Shown here in pieces: positions 27,269 through 29,525 of a stretch of 34,744 nucleotides of DNA. How positions within the stretch are numbered: position 1 is the stretch's first letter; every line of letters begins with the position of its first letter. The DNA is from Gammaproteobacteria bacterium (GTDB lineage: Bacteria > Pseudomonadota > Gammaproteobacteria > PS1 > Pseudothioglobaceae). The stretch covers positions 1 through 34,744 of the forward strand of contig JAQWRQ010000055.1 in NCBI GenBank assembly GCA_029243595.1, read 5' to 3'. The notes under the pieces are model-generated. The model was given only the letters and a program-made list of their open reading frames with translations. It was not told the DNA's origin and did not search any database. Position numbers and translations under genes: made by a program.

Positions 27269-28414
27269 ATGAGATTATTTCTAACCTTATTATTATTGTT
27301 AAGCTCGTTCGTAAAGGCGGATGTGGTTAAGCCTGCGCTAATAGAAATATCAATCTTTACCCCTCAAGGGGGTACTGGAAAGAGTGAGGGTAAAACGCTT
27401 GAAGTTGAGATTGATCTAAGCCTTGAAGCGGCAATGACCGGTATTGGTACTCAATACAAAAAAACCACCGATGCCCCTAATTCAGCACAATATGATGAGC
27501 TAAGAGCGCTCGAACCCGATGTATTGCGTAAACGTTTTAAGAATTTTGAAACTGAATTCTTAAACAGTCTTGAATTGAGTATTAATGGTCAGACCCAAGT
27601 ATTGACGTTAAGTCATGCAAAAATTGACATTATTGGTTATAAAAAACGACCGAGAAAAACCATTTTGACTTACCAAGTAAAACTCAGTGAATGGCCAAAA
27701 ACACTCGCATGGCAATATGGGAAGATCTATGGTGATAGTGCGTTACGTTGGCAAATGTATAAAAAGGATGAATATAATTGGAGTCAATGGCAATGGTTGC
27801 GTGATAGCGCACCTAGTGGTGTGATTGATATTAATCATCCAGAGCCATTGAACGCAGCACAGCGTTTTTATCAGTTCGTTAGTATTGGCTTTGACCATGT
27901 CATCCCATTGGGCTGGGATCACATATTATTTATTGTCGGTATGGCGCTTTCATCACTTTTGTGGCGCAAGCTATTGTTATTGGTTACCACCTTTACCTTG
28001 GCACACACACTGACATTAGGTTTGGCGATGTATGGTGTGGTTGAAGTCTCAGTGAGAATTGTTGAGCCTTTGATTGCCTTTTCTATTGCTTATGTGGCGA
28101 TTGAAAATCTGTTGACTAATCAATCTATCAAACGCAAAAGCGTTATTGTGTTTTTATTTGGTTTGATTCATGGCTTGGGTTTTGCCACCATGCTCAAAGA
28201 GTTTGAAATGGCGTCAGATTCATTTTTAACCACCTTGATTGGTTTTAATGTTGGTGTGGAATTGGCGCAAATTGTAATTGTGTTGGGTGTGGTTAGTGTG
28301 TTGTTGATACTACGTGAGCTAAAACTGAATTATCGACAATTGGCGGTTATTCCTGCTTCGATCGTTATTGCCTTGATTGGAGTTTGGTGGGGCGTAGAAA
28401 GATTAATTACTTAA
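27269..28414 (+). CDS. HupE/UreJ-type membrane protein with N-terminal extracytoplasmic domain
   Basis: The 381-residue protein has a signal peptide (about 1-17). A soluble extracytoplasmic region of about 190 residues follows, then six or seven membrane helices with the HupE/UreJ-like pattern: H-x6-DHILFIVGM, TTFTLAHTLTLGL, IAFSIAYVAIENLL and FGLIHGLGFATML. The conserved histidines and aspartate resemble those of nickel or cobalt permeases of the HupE/UreJ group, but the substrate of this two-domain subgroup is not known. No Shine-Dalgarno sequence is visible: the soxB terminator ends 3 nt before the ATG. No hydrogenase or urease genes are nearby, so the name reflects the family only. Confidence 0.78.
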   Translation: MRLFLTLLLLLSSFVKADVVKPALIEISIFTPQGGTGKSEGKTLEVEIDLSLEAAMTGIGTQYKKTTDAPNSAQYDELRALEPDVLRKRFKNFETEFLNSLELSINGQTQVLTLSHAKIDIIGYKKRPRKTILTYQVKLSEWPKTLAWQYGKIYGDSALRWQMYKKDEYNWSQWQWLRDSAPSGVIDINHPEPLNAAQRFYQFVSIGFDHVIPLGWDHILFIVGMALSSLLWRKLLLLVTTFTLAHTLTLGLAMYGVVEVSVRIVEPLIAFSIAYVAIENLLTNQSIKRKSVIVFLFGLIHGLGFATMLKEFEMASDSFLTTLIGFNVGVELAQIVIVLGVVSVLLILRELKLNYRQLAVIPASIVIALIGVWWGVERLIT

Positions 28415-28439
28415 ATATAGTTAATATTTGAGTTGTAGT

Positions 28440-28560
28440 AATTACAAGTAGTTTTTTCTTGTGCAAGGCAGATTTGTAAAATGTGAGGGCGCGTAGATTT
28501 TCTACGTAACTGAATATTTTAAAAATCTAACGCAGTACAAGGAGAAAATACGAAGTAATT
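28440..28560. repeat. 121-nt imperfect palindrome between convergent genes
   Basis: The gap between the HupE-like gene and kdsD is almost wholly an imperfect inverted repeat. Matching blocks at symmetric positions are AATTAC 28440-28445 with GTAATT 28555-28560, AGATTT 28470-28475 with AAATCT 28523-28528, TAAAAT 28477-28482 with ATTTTA 28516-28521, and a central hairpin CGTAGA 28492-28497 with TCTACG 28501-28506. It could be a decayed miniature transposable element or a large shared transcription stop. The right end touches the kdsD stop codon. Confidence 0.6.
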
Positions 28561-29525
28561 TAGATGATTTTGGCTTGCATTAGGGTGTGGGTATTAATAG
28601 CCCCTACTACTTGGTTGTTTTCATCAACTACTGGTAGAGAATTTAAATTAAACTCATCCATCATTGCTACTGCTGCCATAGCAGGTTTGTCTGCCAATAT
28701 TGACTTGCAGTTAGCGGTCATTACCTCGCCAATGCTTAAGTTTTGAATATCAGTATGATCTTCCAGTACTCGGCGTAGATCGCCATCGGTAAAAATACCT
28801 TGGAGATTGTTATTATGAGTAACTAGCACCATTCCTAATGCTTTTTGACTCATCACTAAGAGCGCATCAAGCAGTTTGGTGTCGCCATTTACGGCGGGAA
28901 TATCATCACCGGTTTTCATAATATTTTTAACAAACGTTAGTAGTCGTCTACCCAAAGCACCAGACGGATGTGAGCGAGCAAAGTCATCAGGACTAAAGCC
29001 CTTGTCTGTGAGTAGACTAACTGCTAGTGCATCGCCCATAGCAAGTGCTACCGTAGTGGATGAAGTTGGTGCTAAATTATGTGGGCAAGCTTCTTTTTCG
29101 ACACCAACATCCAAATGCACATCACAAGCCTCTCCAATTGAAGAGCTGGCGTTTCCAGTCATGCTGATAATTGGCACACCAAGGCGCTGAATAACCGGTA
29201 CTACTGTCATGATTTCATCTGACTCGCCAGAATAAGAAATGCAAATAGCCACATCACCTTCAGTAATCATGCCTAAATCGCCATGGCCAGCTTCACCCGG
29301 ATGTACAGCAAAAGCTGGCGTGCCAGTTGAGGCGAATGTAGCGGCAATTTTATTACCAATATGGCCAGATTTTCCCATGCCAATTAATACAACTTTGCCT
29401 TGACAATTTTGTATTAGTTTGCAAGCTCTGACAAAACTATCGTCTAGGCGATTGGCCAAATCAGAAACAGCCTGAGCTTCGGTGAGTATTACATCTTTAG
29501 CAGATTGCAGCAATGAATCAGACAC
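28560..29525 (-). CDS. kdsD: Arabinose-5-phosphate isomerase KdsD
   Basis: KdsD converts ribulose-5-phosphate to arabinose-5-phosphate, the entry to KDO for lipopolysaccharide. The 321-residue protein has an N-terminal SIS sugar-isomerase domain (about 40-170, with GMGKSGHIGNKIAATFASTG and ISYSGESDEI) and two CBS domains (about 205-320). Conserved features include HPGEAGHGDLGM and the RSHPSGALGRRLL linker. Length is standard. Its start overlaps the end of the YeeE-like gene by 8 nt, so it is read from the same message, unlike the E. coli order beside kdsC and lpt genes. GutQ-type isomerases are close paralogues, but LPS-related genes elsewhere in the window favour KdsD. Confidence 0.93.
   Translation of the reverse strand: MSDSLLQSAKDVILTEAQAVSDLANRLDDSFVRACKLIQNCQGKVVLIGMGKSGHIGNKIAATFASTGTPAFAVHPGEAGHGDLGMITEGDVAICISYSGESDEIMTVVPVIQRLGVPIISMTGNASSSIGEACDVHLDVGVEKEACPHNLAPTSSTTVALAMGDALAVSLLTDKGFSPDDFARSHPSGALGRRLLTFVKNIMKTGDDIPAVNGDTKLLDALLVMSQKALGMVLVTHNNNLQGIFTDGDLRRVLEDHTDIQNLSIGEVMTANCKSILADKPAMAAVAMMDEFNLNSLPVVDENNQVVGAINTHTLMQAKII

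Follow-up and report, generated by a model that had tools for sequence, protein, structure and literature searches.

A long hairpin repeat at the hupE/kpsF junction of a Thioglobaceae-like bacterium is very probably a relative of ERIC

The hupE/kpsF junction and its repeat

The window, by which we mean the whole 34,744-nt stretch of DNA that was analyzed, contains a convergent pair of genes, hupE and a gene for a SIS+CBS sugar isomerase that we take to be KpsF and refer to as kpsF, and the gap between them holds a long imperfect palindrome (Table 1). The element proper measures 123 bp and is bounded on either side by the dinucleotide TA, the left one lying 21 nt beyond the end of hupE. The original prediction for this DNA had named four blocks that recur in inverted order, and all four are present where it placed them: AATTAC at 28440-28445 with GTAATT at 28555-28560, AGATTT at 28470-28475 with AAATCT at 28523-28528, TAAAAT with its partner ATTTTA and, at the apex, CGTAGA at 28492-28497 with TCTACG at 28501-28506. 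As RNA, positions 28430-28570 fold into a single hairpin of -47 kcal/mol, and none of 200 dinucleotide shuffles equals it (-23.5 +/- 3.3; z -7.1), so that the folding analysis called for in the prediction returned a strong structure. Because internal loops break up the arms, a plain inverted-repeat finder reports at the palindrome only a 28-nt inner arm pair (71%). The many differences between the arms that had been pointed out do exist, but those that stay constant are due to conserved internal loops and not to decay, as set out below. At gathering and at lax thresholds the window element matches no Rfam family, and neither an intrinsic terminator (a GC-containing stem followed by a T tract) nor a promoter was found at the element.

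Table 1. Features at the hupE/kpsF junction, in positions of the window
Feature	Position	Strand	Basis
Left gene, HupE/UreJ-family protein	27269..28414	+	ORF; Pfam PF13795
Left TA, putative target-site duplication	28436..28437		Sequence; filled and empty orthologous sites compared
Probable ERIC-superfamily hairpin repeat, element proper	28438..28560	+ (best-folding strand)	Covariance-model match; fold z -7.1
Loop 1, 5' side CAAGTAG	28445..28451	+	Conserved in alignments A2 and A7
Loop 2, 5' side CAAGGC	28464..28469	+	Conserved in A2 and A7
Loop 3, 5' side GAGGGCG	28485..28491	+	Conserved in A2 and A7
Apical hairpin CGTAGA-TTT-TCTACG	28492..28506	+	Sequence; RNA fold
Loop 3, 3' side TAACTGA	28507..28513	+	Conserved in A2 and A7
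Loop 2, 3' side AACGCAG	28529..28535	+	Conserved in A2 and A7
Loop 1, 3' side TACGAAG (usual form GACGAAG)	28549..28555	+	Conserved in A2 and A7
Right TA, putative target-site duplication, within the kpsF stop codon (TTA 28560-28562)	28561..28562		Sequence; filled and empty sites compared
Right gene, KpsF-like SIS+CBS sugar isomerase; the right end of the repeat extends into its stop codon	28560..29525	-	Pfam PF01380, PF00571

Copies in Thioglobaceae

With the window element as query, blastn detects one copy in its own genome and matches at 50 places in 26 of 95 genomes, all of one family and only some of them between hupE and kpsF. Records of Ca. Thioglobus, Ruthia, Ruthturnera, Thiodubiliella, and SUP05 are among the hupE loci that share 63-93% protein identity; from these and the matching contigs we infer that the host is Thioglobaceae-like, and the family label of its relatives is taken from the same sources. 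A covariance model built from 27 Thioglobaceae loci found by blastn (R1) matches the window at 28438-28562 with 132.6 bits and, at E <= 1e-3, places 11 copies in the window's genome and has matches in 44 of the 83 genomes of the family, with up to 24 per genome elsewhere in the family (24 in G007). These copy numbers are lower bounds because only the best first-look candidates in each genome were scored, and the search at order level covered the same 83 genomes. The search for further copies that the original prediction had suggested was thus productive, and the element is almost certainly one copy of a scattered repeat family.

Head-to-tail pairs of repeats, abutting or overlapping by a few bases, were seen at L010 (1371-1626), L048 (1501-1746), L206 (about 1501-1750), and G663:C1:2347424-2347672. 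Two further genomes, G203 (L110-L114) and G517, carry identical or near-identical long palindromic copies, which suggests recent mobility; near-identical copies are also present in G407 and G088.

Insertion at the junction and mobilization

Both genes of the junction are present in 27 of 42 loci examined. Nine of these junctions carry an intact element and four an altered one (L073, L089, L090, and L097); in ten the gap is 0-20 nt with no element, three contain other sequence, and one contains Ns. At L085, a junction without the element, the stop codons of hupE and kpsF overlap (GGCTAGATGAT), and at L102 the site is filled at the same point (GGTTAG-CAATTGC...GCAGCAAT-TTAGATGAT). Comparison of the two sequences makes it likely that the element inserted at TA, leaving TA on both sides and a stop codon in each gene. 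The check for a target-site duplication proposed in the original prediction thus gave a TA on both sides of the insertion, at the hupE/kpsF locus only, several other loci having no clear duplication. Remnants of the element persist at the site in L089 and L090. Because the outer stems differ by locus and yet pair, insertion of the element into the loop of a hairpin already in place was considered; it was rejected for the hupE/kpsF site, where junctions without the element show no such stem.

A bidirectional terminator common to hupE and kpsF and without mobile history, close to the stop shared by both genes that had been offered as one reading, would suit a strong fold in a convergent gap; it is nevertheless very improbable, given the lack of a T-tract terminator, the ten element-free junctions, and the recurrence of the element at numerous unrelated loci, tandem contexts among them.

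In L097 and L073, both at this site, and in L027 of G007, a second short palindrome (CCCCTCAAAGGGG-like) lies within the apex of the repeat, adjoins it, or replaces it.

The search for a mover centered on genomes G407 and G194, in which terminal repeats GGGYRCCTCTAAAAAT flank internal stretches of about 45, 140, 190, and 245 bp; since one terminal repeat surrounds several insert sizes, several miniature elements use one end sequence. Most of the shared ends have a partner about 45 to 250 bp away, some have none, and two are separated by 10 kb. The search detected no autonomous transposon with these ends in either genome, there being no end pair 1-2 kb apart, and the end search in G177, G075, and G247 gave few ends only.

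Stem covariation and conserved loops

For the covariation analysis, 27 of 30 loci were used in alignments A1 and A2 (L013, L026, and L027 were left out), A2 consisting of 27 rows found by blastn and aligned with MAFFT. In A2, 94.3% of pair cells are standard, changes on both sides occur in 26 of 40 pairs, and 135 cells are double changes compared with 40.7 in shuffles (0/500). The covariation that the original prediction had recommended looking for is thus present, and its description of the element as decayed is not supported for a structure this intact across 27 copies. Alignment A7 gives 90.8% standard cells and 502 double-change cells vs 147.5 shuffled (0/500), counts that lean towards the model because the alignment was fitted to it. 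A3 and A5 contain wrong-strand rows and were excluded from counts; A4 was drawn from 22 loci at E up to 1e-7, from which L064 was removed because it was misaligned.

The outermost six pairs vary by locus in Thioglobaceae yet stay complementary and can change in step at a single locus, as in L009 (AGAGGC/GCCTCT) and L020 (AAAAAC/GTTTTT), with L025 cited likewise. Among 11 orthologous hupE/kpsF copies, double changes occur in 7 of 31 predicted pairs. Alignment A6 took in all but one (L219) of the 12 rows in cluster 1, or 11 rows. The conserved positions are the loop motifs CAAGTA / GACGAAG and CAAGGC / AACGCAG and an apical loop in which a GGAG- or GAAGG-type sequence lies opposite TGAGCA or TRACTGA; loops are more conserved than stems in 37 rows (p 0.008, one-sided), an earlier 11-row test having been non-significant (p 0.07). 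The stems drift with compensation while the three internal-loop motifs stay. With many further copies, TA on both sides, and compensatory changes, the suggestion of a miniature-insertion-like and structured repeat is borne out, and the alternative outcome, no copies and neither conservation nor compensatory changes in relatives, is not what the genomes contain.

One correction of an arm is on record: at L097 the left arm has turned into the perfect complement of the right arm. Such template-switch correction of palindromes could yield some paired changes without selection. As a full account of the feature, a chance or mutational palindrome whose arms are kept matching by template switching is barely conceivable: the internal mismatches, which correction would erase, are the conserved part, the strand asymmetry described below also speaks against it, and it is contradicted for the family as a whole.

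The wider family and its link to ERIC

Across the class, R1 at E <= 1e-4 finds matches in 36 of 369 genomes of Gammaproteobacteria, 33 of them outside the family, and the matches inspected keep the loops and have replaced stems. A second covariance model of 23 copies (R2; 109.9 bits in the window) reaches 146 of the 369 at E <= 1e-5, and at phylum level 127 of 398 genomes, 69 of them in other classes. R1, which contains Thioglobaceae copies only, identifies the gap between ahpC and ahpF of E. coli K-12 (44.7 bits, E 2.9e-7 in 55 kb), where the copy carries the ERIC core; R2 scores the same copy at 71.2 bits and the classical ERIC between ybhI and ybhJ at 33.4 bits. In the opposite direction, a model of 37 copies with none from Thioglobaceae (R3), which is not fully independent because it was aligned with R2 and R2 held five Thioglobaceae copies, has the window copy as its sole match in the window (90.3 bits, E 1.9e-21) and also finds the ybhI-ybhJ ERIC, which lies outside the model (40.9 bits, E 5.9e-8). 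In control searches with a cutoff of E 10, a single extra match (E 1.9) appeared for R2 across 92 kb of K-12, Flavobacteria, Bacillota, Planctomycetes, and other loci, and none for R3.

R1 at E up to 10 did not find the classical ybhI-ybhJ ERIC, and blastn of the element had no match in E. coli genomes at E up to 10, so the kinship with ERIC rests on structure models. On these models the element very probably belongs to the same superfamily as ERIC. The original prediction had allowed for an unrecognized repeat family: no Rfam family matches, and blastn against E. coli, phage, and plasmid collections found nothing, but the structure models tie the repeat to a family already known. No literature linking Thioglobaceae or SUP05 to ERIC-like repeats was found in an open-access search, which is weak evidence of absence. 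The K-12 ahpC-ahpF copy, L148 9507-9635 (NC_000913.3 639507-639635), is nearer to the general family than the classical ybhI-ybhJ ERIC.

Strand asymmetry and genomic sites

The + strand folds better in 25 of 27 Thioglobaceae copies (mean -37.3 vs -25.1), in which G-U is more frequent than A-C, 29 to 9, at pairs predicted on both strands, and the same strand folds better in all 15 copies from other genomes, both E. coli copies included. A cruciform would be expected to be symmetrical, and therefore it is most likely that selection sees a single folded strand, as RNA or ssDNA; that the strand-specific fold is itself under selection we regard as probable.

Genomic sites were compared across 38 right-flank clusters, which comprise 81 of the 83 Thioglobaceae copies listed (the partial L027 and L190 were dropped; L088 and L219 denote one place) and, being built on flank similarity, may include some that are not independent. 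In 30 of the 38 clusters the right-hand gene has its 3' end no more than 15 nt from the right end of the repeat; the left end is equally close to a gene 3' end in eight, and contact is right-only in 26 vs left-only in four (p 6e-5). Tandem contexts show 17 antisense vs 3 sense arrangements (p 0.003). A tRNA 3' end adjoins the right side in nine clusters and the left side in none, and in another cluster the RNase P RNA ends directly at the element. Copies abutting the RNase P RNA 3' end occur in several Thioglobaceae (L008, L188, and L212). The K-12 copy has the same arrangement, its right end falling at the stop codon of ahpC as positioned by annotation. Because copies in the other genomes of the class do not favor the 3' ends of genes (R> 26, R< 19 of 46 loci), the pattern is claimed for Thioglobaceae only. 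Here the better-folding strand is antisense to the gene adjoining the right end, and in 17 of 34 classified clusters, where both neighbors point left, it is transcribed by no neighboring gene; a role in mRNA 3' untranslated regions therefore misfits some copies.

These distributions bear on whether the repeat is a purely selfish MITE, conserved only through its need for mobilization, whose functionless copies survive at gene 3' ends while insertions elsewhere are lost. Tolerance at 3' ends would leave survivors there, near-identical copies with clear ends occur in other Gammaproteobacteria, and the remnants in L089 and L090 share one site. We nevertheless consider it somewhat unlikely, as compensatory changes have arisen after insertion at orthologous sites (L009, L020, and L025 included) and tolerance alone does not give an end-specific orientation of 26 vs 4.

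Discussion

ERIC repeats have been known since 1990-91 and are the basis of a widely used typing PCR. Published accounts present ERIC as a TA-flanked, MITE-like repeat with terminal inverted repeats and target-site duplication, whose folded transcripts affect mRNA stability in Yersinia according to orientation (PMC2229807; PMC2267715; PMC10969869). The element described here resembles ERIC (also IRU or RU-1), an imperfect palindrome of ~125 bp (about 127 bp), in its length, in loops and an apical stem that coincide in the model alignments, in its better-folding strand, in the TA at its ends (here at one locus), and in being intergenic and multicopy. It differs in that Thioglobaceae stem letters have diverged beyond the reach of blastn, in that the terminal bases are locus-specific though complementary with no conserved 7-bp terminal inverted repeat, and in its host, a review placing ERIC in Enterobacteriaceae and Vibrionaceae (PMC10969869).

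Other palindromic repeats (YPAL, REP/BIME, Correia/NEMIS, and RUP) were compared via literature descriptions. YPAL (RU-2) of Yersinia is likewise a long palindromic intergenic repeat whose RNA can fold, but it is set apart by its length of about 168 bp and its listing without TA termini (PMC2229807). REP/BIME and REPINs are also extragenic palindromes; they consist of 20-40 bp units (PMC3733652) tied to tyrosine transposases (PMC2817692), and by this description they are unlike a single TA-flanked hairpin of 125 bp. Coxiella QMITE2, compared in the same manner, is a MITE with a palindromic stem found mainly in 3' untranslated regions, but it is 150-190 bp long with 7-11 nt direct repeats of variable sequence (PMC5896051).

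On balance, we favor the reading that the element is a non-autonomous, MITE-like repeat of the ERIC superfamily that is moved in trans and kept as a strand-specific hairpin. Specifically, comparison of the junctions indicates that the element inserted where the stop codons of hupE and kpsF overlap, at a TA that was duplicated, presumably through a transposase acting in trans. After insertion, one strand has remained a long three-loop hairpin as its stem letters drift with compensation. The folded RNA would then lie at transcript 3' ends, here in the hupE 3' untranslated region, and may alter stability or processing, as reported for ERIC in Yersinia. By this analogy an RNA-level function at gene 3' ends is possible, and we put it forward only tentatively.

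Since half of the classified sites have no neighboring gene that transcribes the better-folding strand, a role as single-stranded DNA is a serious rival. The selected molecule would be a folded ssDNA substrate whose loops a recombinase or transposase reads, a logic comparable to that of integron attC sites or REP hairpins. Good folding limited to one strand (25/27 and 15/15), loops that are kept as stems drift, the bias in orientation with respect to transcription (17 vs 3 where contexts are tandem), and the failure to find a partner with common terminal repeats in G407 and G194 all agree with it. Nevertheless, a TA duplication points to DDE-type enzymes and not to HUH or tyrosine enzymes, and paired changes are also present in unmoved orthologous copies (7 of 31 pairs); we judge it unlikely.

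The favored reading, that of a repeat moved in trans and kept as a hairpin, can be extended into a more speculative hypothesis, which we hold somewhat short of probable. ERIC may be no more than the enterobacterial branch of an ancient family that spans the Pseudomonadota. What defines this family would be not its sequence but a strand-specific hairpin whose three conserved loops are read by one common factor, the stems and terminal repeats being free to change, perhaps to suit the resident transposase. The finding accounts for a feature of streamlined sulfur-oxidizer genomes that matches no Rfam family, and the presence of the same loop-stem architecture, with stems replaced, in so many of the sampled Gammaproteobacteria points to the folded strand as the selected thing. 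The loop nucleotides, the strand, and the genomes with near-identical copies provide handles for finding the mover and the binding partner.
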